Origin: Rhodanobacter sp. B04
GTDB lineage: Bacteria; Pseudomonadota; Gammaproteobacteria; Xanthomonadales; Rhodanobacteraceae
Direction: 5' to 3'
Assembly (NCBI RefSeq): GCF_002001125.1
Contig: NZ_MUNV01000007.1
Location: forward strand, 1-64,000
DNA: 64,000 bases
Made by a program: the position numbers and the translations under genes. Shown here piece by piece: positions 16,046 through 28,632 of this stretch. The notes below the pieces were generated by a model. The model saw only the letters and a list, made by a program, of their open reading frames with translations. It did not search any database and was not told the origin of the DNA. Positions within the stretch are counted from its first letter, which is position 1. Each line of letters begins with the position of its first letter.

Positions 16046-17761
16046 TTATTTCGCCGTGTTCGCGTCCGCCTTGGCCGGCGGATTCATCATCGCCTGGCGC
16101 TTGGCGCGGAACGGGCTGTCGGCATACCACTGCGGCCAGACACCGGGCTGGCTGAGGTACTGTCCCAGCTCGTACAGCGCCTGCGTATCCTCGAGGATGC
16201 CGGAATAATCCCAATCCGGATTGAACACGTCGTTGGGCGTGTGATAACGGTGCGCCGTGTAGTCGTCGGCTGCTTTCTGCCCGGCGGCCCGGCCGCCATT
16301 GAGCAGGTCGAGGCCGGAACTGGCCAGCATCGCCGGCACGCCGGCACGGGCGAAGCTGAAATGATCGGAGCGGAAGTAGAAGCCGTTCTCCGGCGTGGTC
16401 TCAGGCGAGATCACCCGCCCCTGCTTCTTCAGTTCGCCGGCCAGCAGATCCTCCAGCTCGGACTGGCCCTTGCCGATCACGGTCATGTCGCGGGCACGGC
16501 CAATGATCGGCAGCGCATCGACCGCGATGTCGGCCACCGTGCGATCCAGCGGAAACAGCGGCCTGGCCGCGTAGTACTGCGAGCCGAGCAGACCGGATTC
16601 CTCCATCGTCGGCATGAAGAACAGCACCGTGCGCCTGGGTGGCTCCGACTGGTGCGCGAAGGCATCGGCGATCTCCAGCAACATGCTCAGGCCGGTGCCG
16701 TTATCGATCGCACCGCTGAAAACCTGGTGCCCCTTGCGCGCAGGATCGGTGCCCAGGTGATCCCAGTGCGCCGTGTAGATCACCACTTCGTCGGGTTTGT
16801 AGCTGCCTTCGATCATGGCCACCACATTCTTCGACTGGAAATGGCCGATCTTGCTGTGCAGGCTCAGCGAAGCGGTGGCATCGAATGGCACCGGCTTGAA
16901 GCCCGGCTTCGCCGCGGCCTTCTCCAGCTGGTCGAAGTCGAGGCCGGCGGCGTTGAACAGGCGCGTGGCGGCATCACGGGTCAGCCAGCCGGCCACCGGC
17001 AGGCGGGGGGCCGGATCGACGCTGGCGGGCAGGCTCAACTGCGGTCCGTTGCCGCTGTTCTGCAGCACGCTGAATGGGTAACCCGCCGCGGCATCGCTGG
17101 TATGCACGATGAAACAGGCCGCCGCGCCTTGTAGCGCCGCCTCCGCATATTTGTAGGTCCAGCGGCCGTAGTAGGTCATCGCGCGACCGTTGAACAATGC
17201 CGGATCACCGCTGGCGAAGCCTGGGTCGTTGACCAGCACGATCACCGTCTTGCCTTTCACGTCGACGCCCTGGTAGTCGTTCCAGTGCCAGTTCGGTGCA
17301 TCGATGCCGTAACCCAGGAACACGATCGGCGAACTCTTCAGGTCGACCCGGGCCTTCGCCTGCAGCGTCTCGGCGATCATGTCGGTGTGATACGCCAGCT
17401 TCACCTGCTGGCCACGGCTCGCGACATCCAGCGTGACCTTGGCGGTATCCAGCAACTGGGTGGAATCGGCCGGCACCTCCTGGAACCAGGAGCCCTGGTT
17501 GCCCGGCTGCAGACCCATCCGCTCGAACTGCTCGACCAGCCAGTCGGTGACGCGCTGCGCGCCCACCGTGCCGGGCTTGCGCCCGCCAAAATCATCCGAG
17601 CTGAGGGTCTTGTCGAACTGCGCGAAGTCCGCGGCATTGATCTGTGGCGCCAGCACGACATCGGGAACATGGGGTTTCGCCGCAGCAGGCGGCGTCGCCG
17701 CCATCAGCGAACTGGCACCCGTGCCCAGGGCGAGCAGGAGAACAGTGGTCATGGCACGCAT
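16046..17761 (-). CDS. Secreted M28-family zinc aminopeptidase with PA insertion
   Basis: 571 residues from ATG 17761, which has GGAG 7 nt upstream and starts a signal peptide (MTTVLLLALGTGASSLMA). The M28 metal site is shown in order by AHWDHLG, GAIDNGTG, TMEESGLLG, VDALP and a late HRYHTPND. A protease-associated (PA) region is inserted between about residues 130 and 290 (GKTVIVLVNDPGF, AACFIVHTSDA). These enzymes release N-terminal residues from peptides in the periplasm or medium. It is convergent with tetR and divergent from the downstream diguanylate cyclase gene. Confidence 0.9.
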   Translation of the reverse strand: MRAMTTVLLLALGTGASSLMAATPPAAAKPHVPDVVLAPQINAADFAQFDKTLSSDDFGGRKPGTVGAQRVTDWLVEQFERMGLQPGNQGSWFQEVPADSTQLLDTAKVTLDVASRGQQVKLAYHTDMIAETLQAKARVDLKSSPIVFLGYGIDAPNWHWNDYQGVDVKGKTVIVLVNDPGFASGDPALFNGRAMTYYGRWTYKYAEAALQGAAACFIVHTSDAAAGYPFSVLQNSGNGPQLSLPASVDPAPRLPVAGWLTRDAATRLFNAAGLDFDQLEKAAAKPGFKPVPFDATASLSLHSKIGHFQSKNVVAMIEGSYKPDEVVIYTAHWDHLGTDPARKGHQVFSGAIDNGTGLSMLLEIADAFAHQSEPPRRTVLFFMPTMEESGLLGSQYYAARPLFPLDRTVADIAVDALPIIGRARDMTVIGKGQSELEDLLAGELKKQGRVISPETTPENGFYFRSDHFSFARAGVPAMLASSGLDLLNGGRAAGQKAADDYTAHRYHTPNDVFNPDWDYSGILEDTQALYELGQYLSQPGVWPQWYADSPFRAKRQAMMNPPAKADANTAK

Positions 17762-17894
17762 CGGAGGACTCCAGTACCCGGGGACAAGCCACCGTTTTAG
17801 CGCGACGATCCGCTGCTGTCCACGAATCTCCCGCGCAAGCGGCAACGCACGAACTTGCTGTTGCCGCGCCTGCCATGCATCGGCCTGACCTTCG

Positions 17895-19154
17895 ATGACC
17901 GCGTCACCGCTTTTCGATAGATTGCACACACTCCGGCTCCCGTGCAGGTCTCGCGTGTCGTCGACCCGTTCTGCAACCTACCTTCTTGCTCAAATGCTGG
18001 CGCTGGCGTGGCTGGGACTTGCCCATGCGCAACCACCGCCGGGCTATGGACCGCCGCCGGCGAGCGAAGCCGCCGGAACACGGCCGCCACCCGGCGCACC
18101 ACCGCCGCCTGGCATGCCGTTCCCTCCACCCGGTGGCATGCCGCCTCCACCCCGTTCACCACGCGAGATACCGCCGCTACCCGCGCCAGTGGCGGTGCTG
18201 CCCGCGTCTTCGGCGCCTCCCACCGAAGTGGCCAATGCCGCGAGCACCACCGGCGATGCCGGCGTCACGGCGATGCCGGTTGTCGCTGCCGCACCGCCAA
18301 CCGTGCCGGTACGCGCCGAAGCCGGCGCGAATGCGGCGTCACCCGGCAGGCCGCCCCAACCGCAGGACATCGCGGCGACAGCCGATCACCCGGTCGCCGC
18401 AACAGCCGACGCGCCGAGTCCATCGCCCCATGCCAACCTGCTGCCCTGGTTGCTGTTGCTGGCGCTCGCCTTTGTACTGCTCGCGTGGCGGGCATCGATG
18501 CGGCGCGGCAGGCAACTGGCGCAGGAAACCGAGCGCCTCTCGCGCCAGCAGCGCTACCTTAAATCCGCGCATACCCACCTGCAGCAGAAATCACGACAAC
18601 TGCAGCAACTATCGATGCACGACCCGCTCACCGGCACGCTCAACCGGCAGGCATTTGCCGCGGAGCTGCGCGAGCGCATCGACCATCTCGCCAAGTACAA
18701 CCAGCCGCTGACCCTGATCGTGTTTGACCTCGATCATTTCAAGACGATCAACGACCGTTACGGCCATCTGCTCGGCGATGCCGCACTCAATCTGGTGGCC
18801 GGCGTGGTGCGCGAGCATCTGGTCAGTGACGACCTGTTCGGTCGCTTCGGCGGCGACGAATTCATGATCGCCTGCTCTGGCCAGAACGTGCTGACCACCG
18901 CCGTACTGGCCGAAAAGCTGCGCGTGGCCGTCGCCACCCGCGCGGCCGAAGCGCAGCCACCGATCCCCGGCCTGACACTGAGCCTCGGATTGGCCCAGGC
19001 CGATCCCGACAACGGCTACCAGCCCGACGAATTGTTCGGCCGCGCCGATGCCGCGCTGTATAGCGCCAAGCAGCGTGGCCGCAACAGCGTGGTAATCGCC
19101 GAAGCCGGCCAGGCCGAAGCACTTGCTGCCGGCAGCGTGCGACGGCATCTGTAA
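17895..19154 (+). CDS. Membrane diguanylate cyclase with proline-rich periplasmic region
   Basis: 419 residues. An N-terminal signal or anchor (LLAQMLALAWLGLAHAQ) precedes a very proline-rich, low-complexity stretch of about 150 residues, then a transmembrane helix (LLPWLLLLALAFVLLAW), a short coiled coil (LSRQQRYLKSAHTHLQQKSRQL) and a GGDEF domain (HDPLTGTLNRQAF, DLDHFKTIND, RFGGDEF). The active site is intact, so it should make c-di-GMP. The RxxD inhibitory site five residues before GGDEF is absent (VSDD), so product feedback is unlikely. The ATG at 17895 lacks a strong ribosome site; ATG 17994 is an alternative giving a cleaner signal peptide. Confidence 0.85.
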   Translation: MTASPLFDRLHTLRLPCRSRVSSTRSATYLLAQMLALAWLGLAHAQPPPGYGPPPASEAAGTRPPPGAPPPPGMPFPPPGGMPPPPRSPREIPPLPAPVAVLPASSAPPTEVANAASTTGDAGVTAMPVVAAAPPTVPVRAEAGANAASPGRPPQPQDIAATADHPVAATADAPSPSPHANLLPWLLLLALAFVLLAWRASMRRGRQLAQETERLSRQQRYLKSAHTHLQQKSRQLQQLSMHDPLTGTLNRQAFAAELRERIDHLAKYNQPLTLIVFDLDHFKTINDRYGHLLGDAALNLVAGVVREHLVSDDLFGRFGGDEFMIACSGQNVLTTAVLAEKLRVAVATRAAEAQPPIPGLTLSLGLAQADPDNGYQPDELFGRADAALYSAKQRGRNSVVIAEAGQAEALAAGSVRRHL

Positions 19155-19196
19155 CCGACCCGACACGTAACCTCATTCACCAGGACGAGCGACCAC

Positions 19197-19667
19197 ATGC
19201 CCCGTATCGATATCACTACCGTTTCCGAGCGCATCGGCTCAGGCTACCCGGCACCATTCGCTGCCAACGCGGGTGCACGCAGCAAGCTGTCGCTTGGCGA
19301 TGCGGGAGGGTTGAGCGATTTCGGCGTCAACCTCACGCGACTGCCGCCAGGTGCATGGTCGAGCCAGCGACATTGGCACACCCACGAAGATGAATTCGTC
19401 TACGTGCTGTCGGGCGAACTGATCCTGGTCACCGAGGCTGGCCAACAGACGCTGCGTGCGAACGACTGTGCGGCGTTTCCCAAGGCCGTGGCTGACGGTC
19501 ATCACCTGATCAACCGTGGCACGGAAACCGCCGTCTATCTGGAGATCGGCTCGCGCAGCGAGAACGACAGCTGCAGCTACCCCGATATCGACCTGCATTG
19601 GGATCCGCAGGCGGGCTATACACACAGGGATGGCATCCCGTATCCCAAACCACCCAGCAAGACATGA
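19197..19667 (+). CDS. Cupin-domain protein
   Basis: 156 residues with one cupin barrel. Motif 1 is RHWHTHEDEFVYVLSGEL and motif 2 is HLINRGTETAVYLEIGSR. The metal ligands H, H and E of motif 1 are present. AGGA precedes ATG 19197. Such stand-alone cupins with the WHTHEDEFVYVLSG signature are widespread and often annotated as sugar- or transcription-related; the ligand is unknown. It follows the diguanylate cyclase by 42 bp and may share its transcript. Confidence 0.8.
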   Translation: MPRIDITTVSERIGSGYPAPFAANAGARSKLSLGDAGGLSDFGVNLTRLPPGAWSSQRHWHTHEDEFVYVLSGELILVTEAGQQTLRANDCAAFPKAVADGHHLINRGTETAVYLEIGSRSENDSCSYPDIDLHWDPQAGYTHRDGIPYPKPPSKT

Positions 19668-19703
19668 AACCATCAGACAACTGACACTGACTGCTTAGGC
19701 AAA

Positions 19704-21491
19704 TCAGCCCGTCTGCGCGCACGCTTCCTGCGTGTCGCTGACGCTGACGCTGACCCGATTACGACCCTCACGCTTGGCCTGGTACAGCGCCTCGTCGGCA
19801 TGAATCAGCAGCTGGCGCAGTTCGTAGCCGGAGTGGGTCACGCTGGCAATGCCGAAGCTGGCGGACACCGGAACGCCAGGGGCCTCGTCGCCAGGGGCTG
19901 CCATCGCGATAGCCTTGCGGATCTGCTCGGCCCGGCCAAGCGCCTGTTCCAGCGTGCACTCGGGCAACAGAATGCCGAACTCCTCACCACCGAGGCGGCC
20001 GAAGATGTCGGTCGAACGCAGGTGCGTCTGGCAGGTCTCGACAGCACGCTTCAACACGCGATCGCCAACCGCGTGACCGTGGTTGTCGTTGACCGCCTTG
20101 AAATGATCCAGATCAATCAACACCAGGCAGGCGTCGCGCGATGACTTGCGGCAATACTGCAGCTGCAACTCGGCCTCGCTGACGAAATGCTGCCGGTTGA
20201 AGATGCCGGTGAGGCCATCGCGCCGCGCCAGCTTCATGAAGCGCAGCTGCGAGCGCTTGATTCGATAAGTCCACATGCCAATCGAGGCCAGCGCGATCAG
20301 AAGCAGAATGATATACAGCCGACTGGCTTCCGCTGCTTTTCGGCTCAGCTCTTTTTGCAGCATGAGGATCTGGTTCTGTTTGCTCAAGGTGTCGATCTGC
20401 AGCTTCTTGGCCAACACCTGCTGGCTGACGACCTGATAGGCCAATGCCTTGGCGCTGATGACGGTCAAGTAACCCTTGTCGGCAGCCATGTATTTCTCGT
20501 GATAGGCCAATGCACTGACCATGTCACCCTGTTTCTTCGCCACCAGATAAAGCTGGTCATAGGCAATGGTAAGTGCTTCTGTATATCCGCCCTTGATGCT
20601 ATTGGCCAAGGCATCCGTGGCAAATTTTTCTGCCGACGTGATGTCTCCCTTTCCCCAATATGCCTGAGCCAGAAGTGCGTTGAACTGGGCAATCAGCGGC
20701 TGGTAATGGGTACGTTCCAGAGCAGCGTAGTTCTTGTCTAACAGATCAATCGCAGCGTCGAACTGACCTTGCCGGACTTCGGCGCTTGCCACGTAAGAAT
20801 AAATAGCGCTCGCAAAGATCGGCTCGTTCGCCCTGACGCACACGTCGGCGCTATCACGAAACTCCTTGTCGGCGTCCGTCATTTTTCCGCTGCCGTAGAG
20901 GGCATGGATCTTCAGTGTCATGCCCTTGCAGACACTTGCATCGGACGGGTCTTCCTTGAGGATTTGGTCGGCGTAGCTCGTGCCCAGGTCGTATTGCTCC
21001 GCGCCGATATAAAGCTGTGCCGCGATACCGAGAGTCTGTATGCGGGCATCCTTTTCGGTTATTTGCGGCAACTGGTCAAGCAACTGGCGCAACCGTGCAA
21101 AAGCTTCCTCGTAATGATTGCCGTTGCTCAGGATATTCACCGCAGTGAGGTTGGCTCGGAACCTCAAAGTGGCATCGGTGGATTGACTTATAACCGTGTC
21201 CAACAACGGAATCGCAGCGGCATATTCACCTCGATAGGCGAACTGCCAGGCGTTCAGATAACCCAGATACAAGCGTTCCTGGGGCGACAAATTTTTCTCG
21301 CCGTCGCTCAGACGTTGCAGAAGAGCGATGAACTCCGCATGGTTCGATGTCTTGAGACTGTCAGCCTGTTTGAGCAATTGCATCTGGCTGTCCGCTGCAG
21401 GCACGGTCGCGCTGACCGTGCCTGCAAGCAGGGTCGAGAGCAGCGCGCAGCCAGCGAAAAAAAGCCGAAACCGCTTGCTGCGCGGAAACAT
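19704..21491 (-). CDS. TPR-sensor membrane diguanylate cyclase, copy A, coupled to borosin precursor A
   Basis: 595 residues: signal peptide (CALLSTLLAGTVSA), a TPR-like helical region over about residues 35-345, a linker helix (KKLQIDTLSKQNQILMLQKEL), one transmembrane helix (LYIILLLIALASIGMWTY) and a cytoplasmic GGDEF domain (RDGLTGIFNRQHF, DLDHFKAVND, GRLGGEEF) with an intact RSTD inhibitory site. It should make c-di-GMP under feedback control in response to a periplasmic cue. ATG 21491 lies only 3 bp after the stop of the precursor-like gene, so translation is probably coupled. It is closely similar over its whole length to copy B at 22634-24493, and the DNA between them contains the remains of a duplicated cassette. 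Confidence 0.85.
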   Translation of the reverse strand: MFPRSKRFRLFFAGCALLSTLLAGTVSATVPAADSQMQLLKQADSLKTSNHAEFIALLQRLSDGEKNLSPQERLYLGYLNAWQFAYRGEYAAAIPLLDTVISQSTDATLRFRANLTAVNILSNGNHYEEAFARLRQLLDQLPQITEKDARIQTLGIAAQLYIGAEQYDLGTSYADQILKEDPSDASVCKGMTLKIHALYGSGKMTDADKEFRDSADVCVRANEPIFASAIYSYVASAEVRQGQFDAAIDLLDKNYAALERTHYQPLIAQFNALLAQAYWGKGDITSAEKFATDALANSIKGGYTEALTIAYDQLYLVAKKQGDMVSALAYHEKYMAADKGYLTVISAKALAYQVVSQQVLAKKLQIDTLSKQNQILMLQKELSRKAAEASRLYIILLLIALASIGMWTYRIKRSQLRFMKLARRDGLTGIFNRQHFVSEAELQLQYCRKSSRDACLVLIDLDHFKAVNDNHGHAVGDRVLKRAVETCQTHLRSTDIFGRLGGEEFGILLPECTLEQALGRAEQIRKAIAMAAPGDEAPGVPVSASFGIASVTHSGYELRQLLIHADEALYQAKREGRNRVSVSVSDTQEACAQTG

Positions 21492-21494
21492 CGT

Positions 21495-21788
21495 CTAGCC
21501 TACCGATGCCAAGGCGTAGAAAGAGGACTGCAAGGTAACTTCATCGTCGTCCTTCGACGGAGCTTCCTCGCTGTCTTCTTCACCTTCCTTGACTGGAAAA
21601 AGCAGGCAGCACATGGGTTCTTTCCCCAGAATTGCTTCCAGTTGCTGTTGATCCTTGGCGAGGATCGCCATCTGCAACTCAGGATCAAGCTGCGCATGTG
21701 CCAGAGCGAGCTCCACCTCTCCCGCTGACGCATGACGCAACTGCGCATCCTGTCCCATCTTTTCAAGAAAATCGATCACATTCGACAT
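21495..21788 (-). CDS. Split-borosin precursor-like peptide A
   Basis: 97 residues from ATG 21788, with AGGGG upstream. Residues 1-55 form a helical leader (VIDFLEKMGQDAQL, LDPELQMAILAKD) that resembles the borosin-binding leader of Shewanella SonA (DFF.QLGQDAQL pattern, recalled from the family). A short hydrophobic stretch with two adjacent cysteines follows at 58-67 (PMCCLLFPVK), the candidate methylated core, then an acidic tail. Precursor B has the same length, and its Cys-Cys pair is at the same residues 60-61. The genes sit beside a borosin-type N-methyltransferase and its remnant. The assignment is by family pattern and context; no modification is demonstrated. A Nif11-type leader is the main alternative. 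Confidence 0.65.
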   Translation of the reverse strand: MSNVIDFLEKMGQDAQLRHASAGEVELALAHAQLDPELQMAILAKDQQQLEAILGKEPMCCLLFPVKEGEEDSEEAPSKDDDEVTLQSSFYALASVG

Positions 21789-21822
21789 CGTAATTCCCCT
21801 GGCGGTTACTTTTGATGACACA

Positions 21823-22359
21823 TCACGATGCTCGATGAATCGACCATGTGCGTTCCCGCAAATGCTCTGGCTCCATCGATGCATCAGTGCAATCACGGAA
21901 CCCCAAGGCAACGACCAACTGCCTCGCCGCCTGATTTTCCGCAAAAAATTTTGCCTGTATCTCGTCGACTGATGACAATGAAAAAAGCCGTTCCATCAGC
22001 GCCGCCAACCCCTCGCGCGCGTATCCCCTTGAACGTGCCCCGCTGGTCAATACTAAGCCAACTTCGAATCTCGTGGCACTCGCGCTGAATTGTGGCACAC
22101 CACAGATACCCAGAGACTGGCCCGATTCCTTTTCCGACATCACCAGATAAAGCCAGCTGGCCGGCAACTGCCGCATTCCTGCGACGATCCATTGAAATCT
22201 GCTTGCCGCCTGCCTTGCAGACAGCAACGGCCCTATGAATCGCATAACCGAAGGGTCGGTGTAGAGACTGCAGAACAAGGCCTCGTCATTGCTATTCAGC
22301 AAGCGTAGGCGCATCCGCCGCGTTTCAAACTCGAATGCCGAAGTCGCAATAATGTCCAT
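21823..22359 (-). CDS. GNAT-family N-acetyltransferase (RimJ/RimL type)
   Basis: 178 residues. The RimJ/RimL-like pattern is ETRRMRLRLLNSNDEALFCSLYTDPSVMRFIGP at the N-terminus, the acetyl-CoA loop near ARSRGYAREGLAALMERLF, and FFAENQAARQLVVALGF. The gene lies between the methyltransferase remnant and precursor gene A, 34 bp before the latter, a position with no counterpart in copy B. It could be a tailoring enzyme for peptide A or an unrelated insertion that came with the decay of the methyltransferase. The start at 22359 is supported by domain start; the ribosome site is poor. Confidence 0.75.
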   Translation of the reverse strand: MDIIATSAFEFETRRMRLRLLNSNDEALFCSLYTDPSVMRFIGPLLSARQAASRFQWIVAGMRQLPASWLYLVMSEKESGQSLGICGVPQFSASATRFEVGLVLTSGARSRGYAREGLAALMERLFSLSSVDEIQAKFFAENQAARQLVVALGFRDCTDASMEPEHLRERTWSIHRAS

Positions 22360-22424
22360 GTCCTTCAAATTCCGGTGGTCAAGGCCTGATTCTGCGCAGT
22401 CATGCACATGCGTATCTTCAGGCC

Positions 22425-22637
22425 GGGGGCCATCTCGGCGCGCATGCCATGCCGACCTCCACATGCGGCAGCGCACCAAGCACGATCCTCGGGTCCGTGG
22501 CGACTGAACCGGCAGCATTGCCGTGCGATAGACGATCACCTCATGCTATGGCTGCGCACCGGCTGTGCCCAGATGGAATTCCAGCGTCATGCACACGCCT
22601 ATGCAGACCAAGCTGCGGGCGGCGCTTGTACCTTCAC
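22425..22637 (-). pseudogene. Degraded borosin-type N-methyltransferase (copy A)
   Basis: The start region reads SLVCIGVCMTLEFHLG, matching SLVCVGLGMTLGSHLG at the N-terminus of the intact methyltransferase at 25057-25878. After a TAG at 22546-22548 the same frame reads HEVIVYRTAMLPVQ, matching the C-terminal part (HELIIYRTATLPIQ). Then, in a shifted frame, RIVLGALPHVEVGMA matches the region just after. About 180 codons including the active site are missing. DNA upstream of both starts is also similar (GCAAGCAAACG). The gene is clearly dead, and its first bases overlap the stop of diguanylate cyclase B. Confidence 0.8.
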
Positions 22638-24493
22638 GCGTTTGCTTGCCCATCGCCGGATCTGAACATCGAAGCATCTTGCAGCACATGCGCATCGCCG
22701 CCCAGAGTGGCATCGCGAGGCACCGAATCACCAAATCCCGGGTGGTCGACCACACTGACCCGATTGCGGCCTTCGCCCTTGGCCCGGTATAGCGCTGCGT
22801 CGGCATGGATCATCAGCTGGCGCAATTCATAGCCGGAATGCACCACACTGGAGGCGCCAAAGCTGGCCGAGATGGGGATGCCGGGAGCATTCTCGCCGGT
22901 AGCTGCGCTGGCAATCGCCACGCGGATCTGCTCGGCGCGGACGATGACCTGCTCCAACGTACATTCAGGCAGCAGGATGCCGAACTCCTCGCCACCCAGG
23001 CGACCGAAAATGTCGGTCGAACGCAGGCAGGTCTTGCAGGCCTCGACGGCACGCTGCAGCACGCGATCGCCCACCGCATGGCCGTGGGTGTCGTTGACAG
23101 CCTTGAAATGGTCCAGGTCGATCAGCACCAGACAGGCGTCGCGCGATGATTTCCGGCAGTACTGCAACAGCAGCTCGGCCTCGTTGACGAAATGCTGCCG
23201 GTTGAAGATGCCGGTAAGGCCATCGCGCCGCGCCAGCTTCATGAAGCGCAGTTGCGAGCGCTTGATCCGGTAAGTCCACAAGGCAATCGTTGCCAGCACC
23301 ATCATCAGCAGGACGATATACAACCGGCTGGCTTCCACGGCTTTTTTGTTGAGTTTCTGCTGCAGCGTAAGTATCTGGTTCTGCTTGTTCAGCGTGTCGA
23401 TCTGCAGCTTTTTCGCCAGCACCTGTTGCTTGACGATTTGATAGGCGAGCGCCTTCGCACTGACTCGACTCACGTAGCCATCGTGGGCAGCGACGTACTT
23501 TTCAAGATTTGCCAGGGCAGCACTGCTGTCGCCCGCCTTCTTGTCGACTTCGTAAAGCACTTGATATGCGTTGGCCGTCGACTCCGAGTATGGCCTGTTG
23601 GCATTGGTAGCCAAGGCGTTGTTGGCAAATTTCGTCGCGGAGGCAAGATCGCCATCCTTCCAGTAAGCCTTGGCCAGGGTGGACTCGAACTCCGAAATTT
23701 GCGGTGGAAAGCCTGCACGTAGCACCTTGGGGTAGCTCGCTTGCAGCACATGGATAGCCGACTCAGGGCGCCCCTGTCGCATGTCGAAACCCGCCAGCAA
23801 GTACTGAAAGCTGAGAGAAAAAAGTGTATCTCCAGCCTTTCCGCATGCCACCGTGCCATCGCGGAGCTGGTCGGCGGACAACTGCGCTCCGCCACGTTCA
23901 AACAGCGCATCGGATTTGTAGAACCAGCCTCTGCATGCACTTTTGGCGTCAGTGCTTTCCTTGATTATTTGATCGGCATAACGACTGGACACATCGTATT
24001 GGCCTGCCTCGTTGTACAACTGCGCCGCGACACCGAGCCCCTGCATGCGGACATCGCTTTCCTTCACTGCGGGCAACTGATCCAGCAACGGATTAAGCCC
24101 GGCAAAGGCTTCCTCATACCGGGATTCGGCCACCATAAGGTCAATCACAGTGGCACTGGCGCGAAACGCCAGAACGGGGTCCACAGTTTGATCGGCGATC
24201 GCTTTCAACGACGGCAGGGCAGCGTCGTAGTTGCCCGCAAAGGCAACCTGCCGGGCCATGAGGTAACGCTGATGCAGCTTTTGCTGCGGAGAGAGCCCCA
24301 TCGCGATTTGATCAAGTCGACCCATGAGTTCGTTGAACTCGGCGTGATTGGAGGGCTGAGCGCTTTCAGCTTGTCTTAGCAACTGTGCAGCATCGTCAGA
24401 TACAGGCACAGCTGCAGCAACGGCGCCTGCAACCAACAAAAGCAGGAGCGCGCAGCATGGGAACACCGATCTGTATCTACCTGCCTGATTCAT
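22634..24493 (-). CDS. TPR-sensor membrane diguanylate cyclase, copy B
   Basis: 619 residues with the same plan as copy A: signal peptide (CALLLLLVAGAVAAAV), TPR-like periplasmic region, linker helix (KKLQIDTLNKQNQILTLQQKL), a transmembrane helix (LYIVLLMMVLATIALWTY) and GGDEF (RDGLTGIFNRQHF, GRLGGEEF) with an RSTD inhibitory site. The GGDEF halves of the two copies are almost the same, and the sensor halves have diverged. Compared with A it has an extra C-terminal tail of about 30 residues (from GDSVPRDATL) that runs into the start of the dead methyltransferase. It begins 52 bp after precursor B and is presumably in the same operon. Confidence 0.85.
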   Translation of the reverse strand: MNQAGRYRSVFPCCALLLLLVAGAVAAAVPVSDDAAQLLRQAESAQPSNHAEFNELMGRLDQIAMGLSPQQKLHQRYLMARQVAFAGNYDAALPSLKAIADQTVDPVLAFRASATVIDLMVAESRYEEAFAGLNPLLDQLPAVKESDVRMQGLGVAAQLYNEAGQYDVSSRYADQIIKESTDAKSACRGWFYKSDALFERGGAQLSADQLRDGTVACGKAGDTLFSLSFQYLLAGFDMRQGRPESAIHVLQASYPKVLRAGFPPQISEFESTLAKAYWKDGDLASATKFANNALATNANRPYSESTANAYQVLYEVDKKAGDSSAALANLEKYVAAHDGYVSRVSAKALAYQIVKQQVLAKKLQIDTLNKQNQILTLQQKLNKKAVEASRLYIVLLMMVLATIALWTYRIKRSQLRFMKLARRDGLTGIFNRQHFVNEAELLLQYCRKSSRDACLVLIDLDHFKAVNDTHGHAVGDRVLQRAVEACKTCLRSTDIFGRLGGEEFGILLPECTLEQVIVRAEQIRVAIASAATGENAPGIPISASFGASSVVHSGYELRQLMIHADAALYRAKGEGRNRVSVVDHPGFGDSVPRDATLGGDAHVLQDASMFRSGDGQANA

Positions 24494-24545
24494 GAACTAA
24501 CCGGCAGTCGCAGGCGCAGGAACGGCAAGTCGTGAAACCTGGTTT

Positions 24546-24839
24546 TTAATCTCCATCCCTTCTTTTGTCCTTCTCCTTGTCTTTCTCCTCCTCACCTTCC
24601 TTGCAGCTGCCGTCACACTCCTCCTGTTCCTCGTCTGGCTTGGCAGGGTTGATCAAGCAGCAGAAAGGATCCTGTCCCAGCAACGCCTGCAACCCATGCT
24701 CATCCCTGGCAAGGATCGCCAACTGCAACTCCGGATCAATCTGCGCTCCTGCCAATGCGGCCGCCAGCGCCTCTGTGTCGGCATGACGCCACTGTGCGTC
24801 CTGGCCGACACTTTCAAGAAAATCGATGACGTCGAACAT
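24546..24839 (-). CDS. Split-borosin precursor-like peptide B
   Basis: 97 residues from ATG 24839 (AAGGG upstream). The leader VIDFLESVGQDAQWRHA...IDPELQLAILARD is homologous to precursor A. The candidate core PFCCLINPAK (58-67) keeps Cys60-Cys61 and the Pro, but changes the hydrophobic residues. The tail is longer in charge (EEEKDKEKDKRRD) and has two more Cys (E-E-C-D-G-S-C). It is encoded between the intact methyltransferase (218 bp upstream) and diguanylate cyclase B (52 bp downstream), so it should be the natural substrate of that methyltransferase. Inference from family and order. Confidence 0.65.
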   Translation of the reverse strand: MFDVIDFLESVGQDAQWRHADTEALAAALAGAQIDPELQLAILARDEHGLQALLGQDPFCCLINPAKPDEEQEECDGSCKEGEEEKDKEKDKRRDGD

Positions 24840-25056
24840 TTGATGATTCCCTTATGTCGGTTGTCGAGACCAGACCGCATGCTCCGCACAGCGATCCGGA
24901 ATGTTTGCAAAACAACTCGATGCCCCTGTCGAACCGGTAGCCTGGCCGATTCTCCCACACTGGTTTTCGCCCCTTCGCAACCCCACAAAGGCGGGAAAGC
25001 ACGTTGTCTTTATCGCGTCTGCAGTGGCAGCCTACCCAAACTCTTCGTCAGATGTG

Positions 25057-25878
25057 TTATCCGACCTCGCGGACGGCATCCGCCATCGCGCGGTCCAGCA
25101 CATCCAGCCTCGCCCTCATCTCGTGGTCCACCCGCATAGCTCGCGCTGGCGGGACCACCACAGTATCGGCCATGCCGATATCCGCCTGCGGCAGCGCGCC
25201 CAGCGCCACCTGTTCGATCCGTGCCTGCTGGATCGGCAGCGTCGCCGTGCGATAGATGATCAGCTCATGTTCCAGCGGATAGTCGCGTGCCAGCACCTCG
25301 ACCAGCAGCTGGCGGTAGGCCGCGCCGGTGGAGAAGCGTGCCAGCGACTGATCGCCGACCAGGCCTACCTGCCATAGCACCAGATAGGCGGTCGGGTCGA
25401 TGCGGCGTTGATAGAACAGCAGCTGGCTTGCCTCGTAGTGCTGGCAGCCGAAGCGACCTGGGTCGATGCCGAGATCCGCATACAGGCAATCCTCGGCAGA
25501 AATGCCCGGCTCCATGTGCGCCGGATAGCCCTCGCTGCGGGCCACCTCGATCGACTTGTGCGGCGCCCAGGCGAACACACCGGGATGGCCGTAGAACACC
25601 CCGCATACCTTCTTGCCCGCGCGCACCTCGGTGAGGATGGCTTCCACCATCTGTCGATAAGTCTGCAAGCGCGACGTACCTTCGTGGTAGTAAGGCTGCA
25701 GGCTGCGCACGTCCGGATGCATCCTCTGCAACCACAACTCCACGATACCGTCGGAAAGCCCCGCAAATACCACGTCGGACTGTTCGATATGGCTGCGCGC
25801 CAACGGGCCAAGGTGGGAGCCCAGCGTCATGCCGAGGCCGACGCAGACCAGGCTGCCGGTGGAACTTGCTGCATTCAT
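25057..25878 (-). CDS. Borosin-type peptide backbone alpha-N-methyltransferase (TP-methylase fold)
   Basis: 273 residues with the tetrapyrrole-methylase fold. It matches the methyltransferase domain of fungal OphMA and bacterial SonM rather than the corrin enzymes: EVRAGKKVCGVFYGHPGVF, GISAEDCLYADLGIDP and WQVGLVGD. Residues aligned with OphMA Y66, R72 and Y76 are conserved here as Y64, R70 and Y74 (pattern YYHEGTSRLQTY). The SAM-binding GHPG is at 97-100. OphMA carries its substrate at its own C-terminus; this protein ends after the catalytic domain, as in split borosins with a separate precursor. Two such precursor-like genes follow. It would methylate backbone amides of the precursor core. 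The start ATG 25878 is supported by the N-terminus; the ribosome site is weak. Confidence 0.8.
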   Translation of the reverse strand: MNAASSTGSLVCVGLGMTLGSHLGPLARSHIEQSDVVFAGLSDGIVELWLQRMHPDVRSLQPYYHEGTSRLQTYRQMVEAILTEVRAGKKVCGVFYGHPGVFAWAPHKSIEVARSEGYPAHMEPGISAEDCLYADLGIDPGRFGCQHYEASQLLFYQRRIDPTAYLVLWQVGLVGDQSLARFSTGAAYRQLLVEVLARDYPLEHELIIYRTATLPIQQARIEQVALGALPQADIGMADTVVVPPARAMRVDHEMRARLDVLDRAMADAVREVG

Positions 25879-26060
25879 TCGTTTGCTTGCTCGTCGCTGA
25901 TCTGTAGTCGAAGTGTCTCGCCGCACGTGCGTGTCGTTGACCGGAAAACCATCCGGGTCATCGAGTCAGCGTGATGAATTCCCCTGCCTCGCGGCTTTAC
26001 GGTATTGCGCCCGCGCCCCACATGGCATCGCTTCGATGAAGGTATCCGGGAAAGCAAGAC

Positions 26061-26083
26061 CGGGGCAAGCATTGCCTGCCCCG
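26061..26083 (-). terminator. Hairpin after the 2'-5' RNA ligase gene
   Basis: CGGGGCA (26061-26067) pairs exactly with TGCCCCG (26077-26083), 5 bp beyond the stop of the minus-strand gene. The following minus-strand bases are only moderately T-rich (GTCTTGCTTTCC). Confidence 0.4.
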
Positions 26084-26087
26084 CTGT

Positions 26088-26702
26088 CTACGGCTGGCTG
26101 GCCATCAGTGGCCAGCGTCCGAGTATCTGATAGGCGCCTTGCCCGACCACGTGATGGATCAGCGCAAACTCCGTCACCGGCCACGTCACGGGCTCGACGA
26201 CCAGCTCCGGCAGCATCGTGCCCCGGCTGTAGGCCAGCGTGACATGCGGGGTAAAGTTGCGTTCGAGCCGCACGCCTTGCACCGCCAGTGCCAGCGTTTT
26301 TCCCAGCGCCTGCCACAGTTGCTGCAGCGGCGCGCAAGTCTCCATGCCCTGCAGCACGCACGGCGGTTCGCGACCACGGAAGCTGGTGGCGCTATCCAGT
26401 GTCCAGGTGAACGGTATCGCACGCACATTCTCGGCCGCGGCCACCACGCCATCGAACAGGCCTGGCCGCAGCGCAGCGTGATCACCCAGGTAATGCAGGG
26501 TGGCGTGATAGCGGTCCGGGTGGATCCAGCGTGCGCGCAGACTGGGGCGTGCGGCCCTGAGCGCGGCGACGACGGCCGCCAGTCGCTCGCGGGTGGTGGC
26601 GTCGGGCAGCAGCGCGAAGAACAGCCGGTGTACTTCGGTGGAGGCGATGCCGCCGAGAAGGTCGGGCTGGTGGGTTTCGGGCAGGGTTTGTCGAATGGCC
26701 AT
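26088..26702 (-). CDS. thpR: RNA 2',3'-cyclic phosphodiesterase / 2'-5' RNA ligase
   Basis: 204 residues of the 2H phosphoesterase superfamily. The two HxT signatures are visible: HATLHYLG in the N-terminal half and HVTLAYS in the C-terminal half. RLFFALLPDATTRERL is the typical start of the domain. These enzymes open 2',3'-cyclic phosphates and can join tRNA halves with 2'-5' bonds in vitro; the cellular role is unclear. ATG 26702 was chosen because the domain begins soon after. A second, more divergent 2H protein is encoded at 47468-48190. Confidence 0.85.
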   Translation of the reverse strand: MAIRQTLPETHQPDLLGGIASTEVHRLFFALLPDATTRERLAAVVAALRAARPSLRARWIHPDRYHATLHYLGDHAALRPGLFDGVVAAAENVRAIPFTWTLDSATSFRGREPPCVLQGMETCAPLQQLWQALGKTLALAVQGVRLERNFTPHVTLAYSRGTMLPELVVEPVTWPVTEFALIHHVVGQGAYQILGRWPLMASQP

Positions 26703-26868
26703 GGATGCTATGTAGCACGTCCAGCGGGTTGAACAGCGACCCCATTGCGTCATTCCCCGTGAGTCGATGGCCAGCCATGTCGCATGGGTGCCGCCGCCAT
26801 GACCCGAGTATGTCGTTGGAGATGGGACGAGTTGTCGTAACCCCACCCTGCGGTTTTCGTGAAGGCGT

Positions 26869-27783
26869 TTATTCCGCCGTATCCGCGGATACCGGTACGG
26901 CAGGCGGCGCCTGGGCCGTCAGCAGCGCACGGATCACGCGCAGTTTCGCCTTGATCTTCGCCTCGTTGGCGGGGCCCACGCGAAACAGCAATCGCTGCCC
27001 GGCGGACAGCGATTCCAGCGACGGATCGGCATACACGTAGAACGGCCCGGACTGTATCAGCGCCGCCGGATGGTCCAGCTCGGGCGCGGCCAGCAGGTCG
27101 TCGATCACCACGATCAGCCGGTCGTTGAAGTAACCCTGCGGATACCCCAGTTGCCGATATGCCTGCTGGAACAGCGGATAGGCATGCACGTACCAGGCAA
27201 CCAGCGCCTGCGGATCGATTCCGTCCACGATCTGCATGTACGGTGCATAGCGCAAGCTGTTCTGCCCGCTGATCACGGCCTGGCCATCGACCTCCGCCGT
27301 GGCCAACGCGCCCCTGGGCGTGCGCAGCGGCAGCATCAACGTGCCCAGTGCATGCCGCGGCAAGGCGTCGATGGTCGCCACGATGCGCGTGACGACCTGC
27401 TGCGGCAGCAGCAACGAGCGCAAGTCGCCGCTGCCGGCCAGCGCCGCGAGCGCCGCCACCACGCTGGCATCGCTGTCGTCCAGTGCCGGCAAGGGTGCGG
27501 TCGATGCGCCAGCAGGGGCGCCTGTCGGTGCAATCGGATACCGGATGGATGATGTCGCCGCGCGGGCCGGCGCAGGCGCCGATGCAGGGATGGAAGGCAC
27601 GTCTGCCGACTCCTGCGCACCGGGATGCACCGCCTTGCGTGCCAGGTACGCACCCGCCGCGACGACAGCCAGCACCACGATCACGGCGCCGATCCAGCTT
27701 CCCGGGGACGTGTCTTTGCTCACGATCTGTTCCGCCCGACGATTCAGTATCGGCTTTGACTTGCTCGCATCCGATTCGTTCAT
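26869..27783 (-). CDS. DUF3014 membrane protein
   Basis: 304 residues from ATG 27783. A cytoplasmic N-terminus of about 30 residues is followed by one transmembrane helix (WIGAVIVVLAVVAAGAYLA), a Pro/Ala-rich linker and the DUF3014 domain (LRSLLLPQQVVTRIVATIDALPR, YMQIVDGIDPQALVAWYVHAYPLFQQAY, GYPQGYFNDRLIVVIDDLL). The family is found in gammaproteobacteria as an inner-membrane protein with a periplasmic domain; its function is not known. It lies alone, divergent from the methyltransferase at 27943. Confidence 0.85.
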   Translation of the reverse strand: MNESDASKSKPILNRRAEQIVSKDTSPGSWIGAVIVVLAVVAAGAYLARKAVHPGAQESADVPSIPASAPAPARAATSSIRYPIAPTGAPAGASTAPLPALDDSDASVVAALAALAGSGDLRSLLLPQQVVTRIVATIDALPRHALGTLMLPLRTPRGALATAEVDGQAVISGQNSLRYAPYMQIVDGIDPQALVAWYVHAYPLFQQAYRQLGYPQGYFNDRLIVVIDDLLAAPELDHPAALIQSGPFYVYADPSLESLSAGQRLLFRVGPANEAKIKAKLRVIRALLTAQAPPAVPVSADTAE

Positions 27784-27942
27784 CCCGCGCATGACCGGCG
27801 CAAGGCACGCACCACGCCAAAGCGGCCATGGCGTACGATGGCCATGCTCATGCTGCTCTCGGCGCCCTGACGATCATCGTCACCGCACTCCCATCCTTCG
27901 CCTCATGCCGGTTATCCGGTCGAAGCCCACACGGGAGCGCCC

Positions 27943-28632
27943 ATGCCGGGCTATGCCACTCGCGAACTCACGGTCTGCCTTGGCGGCCGCGACTATCGCA
28001 TCCGCGCACTGAGCGACCTGCAGCAGTTTGCCGACCCGCATCTGCACGCCGACCGCATCGGCATCTCGTCCGCGCAATGGAGTCTGTTCGGCCAGGTGTG
28101 GCCAGCCGGCCGCGTGCTGGCCGAGGCGATGTGCACGCACGATATCGTTGGCAAGCGCATTCTCGAGCTTGGCTGCGGACTGGGCCTGTCCAGCCTGGTG
28201 CTGCAGCAGCGCAAGGCCGACATCACCGCCAGCGACCACCATCCGCTGGCGGCATCGTTCCTGCGTCACAACACTGCGCAAAACCGGCTGCTGGCCATCA
28301 CCTACCGCGACCTGCGCTGGGAGGTGCCCGATGCAACGCTGGGGCGTTTCGACCTGATCATCGGCAGCGACATCCTGTACGAGAGCGGGCACGCCGGCCT
28401 GCTGGCAGCGATCGTGCTGCGCCATGCCCTGCCCGATGCCGAGGTGTTGATCACCGATCCCGGCCGCGGCAACAGCGCCCCGTTTTCCCGCGCACTCGCC
28501 GGACAGGGCTATACGGTCGTCGAACTGCGCAGCCGTTTCGATGCACGCGACATCGCGCCGTTCCGTGGCCGGCTGCTGAGCTATCGGCGCGGTGACGTGA
28601 TGGCCGACGGCGTTCCGACCGGACCGCAGTAA
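27943..28632 (+). CDS. Class I SAM-dependent methyltransferase (METTL21/NNMT-like)
   Basis: 229 residues from ATG 27943 with GGGAG upstream. The Rossmann motif I is ILELGCGLGLSSLVL, followed by ADITASDHHP and FDLIIGSDILYE. This resembles the METTL21-type protein lysine methyltransferase family (Methyltransf_16), whose bacterial members modify proteins such as ribosomal factors, although the substrate here cannot be predicted. It is convergent with the ABC transporter genes, with an 11-bp gap. Confidence 0.8.
   Translation: MPGYATRELTVCLGGRDYRIRALSDLQQFADPHLHADRIGISSAQWSLFGQVWPAGRVLAEAMCTHDIVGKRILELGCGLGLSSLVLQQRKADITASDHHPLAASFLRHNTAQNRLLAITYRDLRWEVPDATLGRFDLIIGSDILYESGHAGLLAAIVLRHALPDAEVLITDPGRGNSAPFSRALAGQGYTVVELRSRFDARDIAPFRGRLLSYRRGDVMADGVPTGPQ

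Follow-up and report, generated by a model that had tools for sequence, protein, structure and literature searches.

Split-borosin genes paired with TPR-GGDEF sensors in Rhodanobacter sp. B04: a possible route from methylated peptides to cyclic di-GMP

Split borosins, in which a separate enzyme N-methylates the backbone of a ribosomal precursor, are given no biological role in the available parts of the borosin literature covered here (PMC11395268, PMC8429565, PMC11285071, PMC9505594). A block of genes on the minus strand of contig NZ_MUNV01000007.1 (positions 19704–25878) of Rhodanobacter sp. B04, a genome of 3.8 Mb, raises the question of what such peptides might do. Within the 64,000-nucleotide stretch analysed here (positions 1 to 64,000 of that contig; hereafter the window), the block reads, in order of transcription, methyltransferase, precursor A1, TPR-GGDEF 1, a methyltransferase remnant, a GNAT acetyltransferase, precursor A2 and TPR-GGDEF 2, the two TPR-GGDEF proteins being membrane sensors that join a tetratricopeptide repeat (TPR) domain to a predicted cyclic di-GMP (c-di-GMP) synthase. 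Our best reading, to which we give close to an even chance, is that this type IV split borosin acts as a signal, with dedicated TPR receptors that pass it on to c-di-GMP.

The first gene (25878–25057) encodes an intact enzyme of 273 amino acids (aa), and its assignment as a borosin-type peptide alpha-N-methyltransferase is strongly supported by its sequence. A search of the PDB returned SonM at E 6e-77, with 49% identity (124 of 253 aligned residues), followed by fungal OphMA-type enzymes at 1e-48 to 1e-45. TP_methylase, above its cut-off, is the sole Pfam domain, and the protein is discrete, with no fused core peptide. In the alignment, Y64, R70, Y74 and Y96 fall exactly on Y58, R67, Y71 and Y93 of SonM—residues probed by mutation according to the part of the SonM study available (PMC8429565)—and each is conserved in 279 or 280 of 281 aligned sequences. 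The enzyme type and the catalytic trio Y64/R70/Y74 had both been proposed in an earlier note made from the letters of this stretch, and both stand. The closest relative carrying a species name is that of Rhodanobacter sp. C05 (96% identical). A search of its own genome found this enzyme as the single methyltransferase match, so A1 and A2, if both are methylated, must share it.

The same note had seen the order methyltransferase–precursor–cyclase twice, as a duplicated locus. What is doubled is the precursor–sensor pair, whereas the methyltransferase is single: of a second SonM-type enzyme, tblastn with the intact protein found just a remnant (about 22632–22421), comprising residues 3–24, a stop codon, and then residues 204–245 across two frames, with some 180 residues of the interior gone. 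Between this remnant and A2 stands a gene that the note had passed over, a GNAT acetyltransferase of 178 aa (22359–21823), assigned by Pfam Acetyltransf_3, with homologs beside borosin methyltransferases in several lineages. Because the order methyltransferase–GNAT–precursor–sensor occurs with an intact enzyme at two Rhodanobacter-type loci (L145, L146) and in an Alteromonadaceae metagenome-assembled genome (MAG; L211), we read the second unit of the window as a complete unit minus its enzyme; it looks like a formerly complete unit that has lost its own methyltransferase.

Precursors A1 (24839–24546) and A2 (21788–21495) are each 97 aa long and share 58% identity across their first 74 aa. Both consist of a leader of the borosin-binding-domain kind (residues 1 to about 55), a hydrophobic Cys-Cys core (about 57–67; PFCCLINP and PMCCLLFP, respectively) and a charged tail. 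The SonA-like leader that the earlier note had ascribed to them is borne out by a profile built from 21 precursors, for which SonA chains were the sole PDB matches at E up to 1 (best 2.5e-5); searched as single sequences, A1 gave no SonA match and A2 matched SonA at E 0.03, besides a sub-threshold Nif11 hint in Pfam (E 0.01). In the predicted structure of A1, residues 4–54 contain five helices, with confidence (pLDDT) blocks of 74–90 there, a mean of 71 and low values in core and tail. Its top structural matches are again SonA chains, although these are weak (Foldseek E about 2; VIA Z 6.3 over 64–67 residues). Many other precursors of the family, among the matches listed, have a polar proline-rich core and an acidic tail, and a few loci have a lysine-rich tail. 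At L188, L192, L193, L194 and L195, tails of lysine, alanine and proline replace the acidic ones, and the precursor shares an open reading frame with a GNAT or directly follows one.

Directly after each precursor, as had been noted earlier, comes a membrane TPR-GGDEF protein: TPR-GGDEF 1 (619 aa; 24493–22634) follows A1 at 52 nucleotides and TPR-GGDEF 2 (595 aa; 21491–19704) follows A2 at 3. The two are 60% identical over 576 aligned positions and share one plan: a signal-like hydrophobic stretch at the N-terminus, then the TPR region, a membrane segment that is again hydrophobic, and a GGDEF domain (Pfam E 1e-41 and 3e-44). Both carry a GGEEF active site and an RxxD I-site, and they probably make c-di-GMP. 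Among 85 sensor homologs from named genomes, GG[DE]EF is present in all and the I-site in 76; by hydropathy only, all 85 have a hydrophobic segment ahead of GGDEF and 72 a hydrophobic N-terminus, and 8 examples inspected among the 13 that score below the N-terminal threshold still look signal-like. Lying between two hydrophobic segments, the TPR domain should therefore be periplasmic. Its model (pLDDT 90) resembles the peptide receptors Rap, NprR and AimR at Z of about 20–23 across some 290–310 residues, where unrelated TPR proteins reach up to 25.8, and also resembles APPBP2, APC5, LGN and MalT. A profile of the TPR region searched against solved chains placed RapF first (E 7e-7), with other TPR proteins next.

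The triad that the earlier note had described at this one locus recurs in nearly all the loci examined from the window genome's own family. There, 94 of 147 genomes gave an enzyme match, at 139 places summed, from which 100 regions were taken: a precursor was present in all 100 and a sensor was adjacent in 99, the exception (L037) having a 37% identical enzyme and no sensor. Among 80 loci from named genomes, which share species with the 100 family loci and cannot be added to them, 75 have the sensor and 76 the precursor; L142, L147, L193 and L209 are cut by a contig end, and L213 also has no sensor. Methyltransferase, precursor and TPR sensor occur together in Lysobacter, Kangiella and an Alteromonadaceae MAG as well. 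A class-wide draw gave an enzyme match in 9 of 369 genomes, 2 of them from the own family. In the family of genome G494, 47 of 118 genomes match the window enzyme. Forty regions (37 from this family, 3 from that of G434) include 38 with a same-strand sensor and 31 with a precursor within 2.5 kb, the sensor lying on the opposite strand at L264 and being absent at L271. With SonM as the query, 94 of 394 genomes in the order of G494 match, and 40 chosen regions gave a sensor in 36 and a precursor in 37 (L347, L356 and L360 without a sensor; L364 cut). At L325 the triad comprises an enzyme with 98% identity to SonM, a precursor and a TPR-GGDEF protein; we infer that the genus of L325 is Shewanella and that the family of G494 is Alteromonadaceae.

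Enzyme and sensor are also present or absent together across whole genomes. When the sensor domain was scored against the enzyme in the 147 genomes of the own family, 94 had both, none the enzyme only, one the sensor only and 52 neither (Fisher p 3e-39); the sensor-only genome, G120 of genus g26, has a weak match near a contig start. The 118 genomes of the second family divide, at the thresholds used, into 40 with both, 7 with the enzyme only, 4 with the sensor only and 67 with neither (p 1e-19). Of the enzyme-only genomes, G494, G523, G552, G572 and G612 have, next to the enzyme, a TPR sensor of the kinase type, and the remaining G545 and G598 have their loci outside the regions taken. The association of enzyme, precursor and sensor exceeds chance, and the coupling of borosin cassette and TPR sensor is well supported. 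Like the window, L074, L076 and L135–L138 combine one enzyme with two sensors, each with its precursor. In the genomes with sensors at G002:C1:166890, G040:C7:124754, G113:C1:1155581 and other such positions, the distant sensors are nearer to the window sensor than are the enzyme-adjacent ones of the same genomes.

The output joined to the TPR domain is exchanged between loci. It is mostly GGDEF, otherwise a histidine kinase with or without a receiver, or GGDEF fused to the methyltransferase; kinase-type sensors have the TPR part in common with the GGDEF type but not the cytosolic output. Within the G494/G434 set, 15 of the 38 sensors have a hybrid histidine kinase as their output, and a gene for a receiver joined to GGDEF (REC-GGDEF) is present as well at 6 of the 15 loci. 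The set from the order of G494 has 2 sensors with kinase and receiver, 6 with kinase only and 3 others (L357, GGDEF by Pfam; L331, split across two frames; L362, TPR only). Hybrid histidine kinase sensors occur at L214, L215, L255–L262, L276, L283, L284, L290 and L292–L294, and L214 has both kinds. Three genomes of genus g26 encode a single protein that runs TPR, membrane segment, GGDEF, methyltransferase (L034:7559-10171, L035:8344-10830, L036:9141-11819), without an I-site and with a SonA-like precursor adjoining. A 637-aa protein at L360 (600–2513) carries a borosin-type methylase mid-chain, with no other Pfam domain and no sensor nearby.

Which part of the sensor goes with the precursor can be approached through co-variation. 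Of 238 precursor–sensor pairs, all but one (237) had complete domains, and dropping near-identical sensors left 198. By rank partial correlation over these 198 (99 permutations, p 0.01 at best, with shared phylogeny still contained in the values), the leader varies with the TPR domain at 0.28, given enzyme and GGDEF, and with the enzyme at 0.27, given TPR and GGDEF, as against 0.015 for leader and GGDEF. The leader–enzyme value has a counterpart in the known contact between SonM and SonA. Shortening the TPR alignment to the length of GGDEF left the leader–TPR value at 0.26, and each third of the TPR domain taken alone gave 0.21–0.24; a signal in all thirds speaks against mere local recombination beside the precursor gene. 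Restricted to the closer half of pairs, the analysis gives 0.45 for leader–TPR, 0.34 for leader–enzyme and -0.10 for leader–GGDEF. This co-variation hints at contact of the TPR domain with the folded leader, and through it with the precursor as a whole.

Put together, a SonM-type enzyme would, by homology, N-methylate the backbones of A1 and A2 after docking on the folded leader, and the product, be it the complete modified precursor or a fragment, would be exported and bind directly to the periplasmic TPR domain of the sensor encoded just downstream. Binding would make the GGDEF domain, on the cytoplasmic side, more or less active and so shift c-di-GMP. The two precursor–sensor pairs of the window would then work as two channels that depend on a single methyltransferase, the second pair's own copy having been lost. 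The co-inheritance, the output swap and the leader–TPR co-variation agree with the suggestion in the earlier note of a peptide that senses or controls c-di-GMP, while methylation, binding and cyclase activity are predictions. A wider claim, that gammaproteobacterial type IV split borosins as a class are a Gram-negative form of peptide signalling, with methylated peptides or small proteins as ligands of TPR receptors and with outputs swapped among c-di-GMP synthesis, a kinase relay (sometimes with REC-GGDEF) and an enzyme-fused receptor, is possible but on balance doubtful.

Several observations count against signalling of this kind. The main problem is that contact between leader and TPR domain conflicts with the apparent topology, a folded precursor having to cross the membrane; no signal peptide is visible by eye in the precursors, no exporter was recognised within the cassette, and 5 of the 85 sensors have an extra hydrophobic stretch within the TPR part. 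The core co-varies weakly and without preference for TPR (0.10, against 0.14 for GGDEF) and shows no co-variation with the enzyme (0.005), and the leader values include the phylogenetic share already mentioned. TPR folds are common, and for the TPR model the top Z-scores belong to APPBP2 and APC5 and the top Foldseek E-values to LGN. Nor is the pairing strict: of seven class-level loci beyond the own family, 2 have a sensor and 5 have none; the 4 sensor-only genomes of the second family speak against strict coupling; several genomes have sensors located away from the enzyme; some loci have two precursors with one sensor (such as L051, L117 and L149) or one precursor with two sensors (such as L055, L097 and L132); and at 4 of the 6 REC-GGDEF loci (L276, L283, L284, L290) no precursor was recognised.

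Accessory genes around the cassettes bear on how the peptides might be finished. Homologs of the GNAT protein occur no more than 2.5 kb from the best enzyme match in 7 of the 100 family regions, 21 of the 80 named loci, 19 of the 40 G494/G434 regions and 12 of the 40 regions from the order. Pepsin-like aspartic proteases, which are reported to be rare among bacteria, lie within 4 kb in 0, 1, 11 and 7 of the same sets. They stand beside borosin methyltransferases, mostly with a GNAT gene between, at L211:6022-7332, L333:4292-5860 and 17 more loci, and are candidate maturation proteases, a possible role for the shewasins. A search of the window genome and 20 relatives, run without a positive control, gave no pepsin-like match. 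Near the cassette, on the opposite strand, lies a GGDEF protein of another type with a proline-rich N-terminus (17895–19154, plus strand). No c-di-GMP riboswitch or other known RNA reached Rfam gathering scores in 17000–28000, and scans for promoters and terminators, which predicted 2 and 7, are uninformative because shuffled sequence gave similar counts (2.7 and 5.3).

Other accounts of the locus fare differently against this evidence. The sensor might act upstream of the peptide, its TPR domain reading some other envelope cue and c-di-GMP or a phosphorelay controlling borosin production or methylation, while the borosin does an unrelated job as, for instance, an antimicrobial or a metallophore. 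We consider this unlikely but a serious contender: regulators are common in peptide gene clusters, the g26 fusion, with its methyltransferase placed after GGDEF on the cytosolic side, would be in keeping with a sensor that governs the enzyme, and the GNAT, with the pepsin-like protease of some relatives, resembles a tailoring or maturation gene. Yet an upstream sensor does not predict that the leader should co-vary with the TPR domain as strongly as with the enzyme, or that one enzyme should serve two precursor–sensor pairs, as in the window and at some other loci. It also seems quite unlikely that the precursor is retained in the cell and, whether methylated or not, attaches to the membrane cyclase or kinase on its cytosolic face, acting as a small regulatory subunit that methylation would switch. 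The lack of a visible signal peptide and of a recognised exporter, the folded leaders and charged tails, and the g26 enzyme fused beside GGDEF would all suit such a partner, as would the reported cytosolic location of shewasin D, a Shewanella pepsin homolog (PMC4814920, in the part available), though the window genome gave no pepsin homolog. However, the partner with which the leader co-varies is TPR, not GGDEF, and what kinase-type sensors keep is the TPR part and not the cytosolic output.

Two further explanations have still less to recommend them. Linkage of the three genes by descent or by selfish association, with no function behind it, gains from the vertical inheritance that is probable for many family loci, but we find it very improbable, since the co-inheritance spans presence and absence inside one family, the outputs differ and include a fusion, and the triad recurs in Lysobacter, Kangiella and the Alteromonadaceae MAG. 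Practically no credence is left for a corrin or siroheme methylase that happens to lie beside unrelated small proteins, an alternative raised in the earlier note. It has Pfam TP_methylase in common with the window enzyme, but the best NCBIfam scores, 34.7 bits (cut-off 525) and 20.4 bits (cut-off 246), fall far short for the corrin and YabN models, the best relatives among solved structures are SonM and OphMA, and the active-site residues are intact; this identity was rejected.

How much of this is new depends on the literature, and the statement in the earlier note that the arrangement is not described was too strong. A 'GGDEF-sequence-containing domain' is named in the legend to Fig. 1, on borosin architectures, of a 2024 paper (PMC11395268), where, in the part available, GGDEF appears in that legend only and 'diguanylate' and 'cyclic di-GMP' are absent; and the same neighbour stands beside the 98% identical SonM at L325. 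In the open-licence literature, outside which lie supplements and most subscription papers, that legend is the only place where borosin and GGDEF occur together. Borosin does not co-occur there with diguanylate cyclase, c-di-GMP or tetratricopeptide, it co-occurs once with histidine kinase, in words that are unrelated in the part available, and a signalling reading of split borosins was not found. A search for SO1480, a number guessed from SO1478/SO1479 for the gene after sonA, returned no literature, and a wider search led to PMC8429565 alone. Other publications may well have noted the neighbouring GGDEF gene. The parts are of a known kind, the type IV split borosin; the unusual feature is that, throughout a family, they are paired with a single sensor domain whose outputs can be exchanged. 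This recurrent pairing suggests that borosin peptides hitherto without a role are signals, and because the enzyme and one sensor domain are inherited together almost without exception, the role of split borosins can be put to the test. If the reading is right, it would add a family of peptide receptors with an RRNPP-like fold in Gram-negative bacteria, and a signalling role for ribosomal backbone N-methylation.

The closest known system is SonM/SonA of Shewanella oneidensis (PMC8429565, in the part available), with which the window shares a separate enzyme and precursor, 49% enzyme identity, the same active-site residues and a five-helix leader, and, to judge from L325, a TPR-GGDEF gene directly after the precursor; from that locus, the laboratory strain S. 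oneidensis MR-1 should carry a unit of methyltransferase, precursor and TPR-GGDEF protein. The window differs in having two precursor–sensor pairs per intact enzyme, a GNAT gene and a methyltransferase remnant, and in cores and charged tails unlike the SonA core. With the architecture in PMC11395268 it shares GGDEF as a named domain.

On the receptor side the comparison is with the RRNPP proteins Rap, NprR and AimR. In window-type sensors the TPR domain lies between hydrophobic segments and leads into GGDEF or a histidine kinase, unlike RRNPP receptors, which are cytosolic and belong to Gram-positive bacteria and their phages. RRNPP receptors bind small peptides that are often encoded adjacently. 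The two resemble each other in the TPR superhelix, with Rap among the top profile and fold matches, a likeness at the level of the fold that many other TPR proteins show as well.

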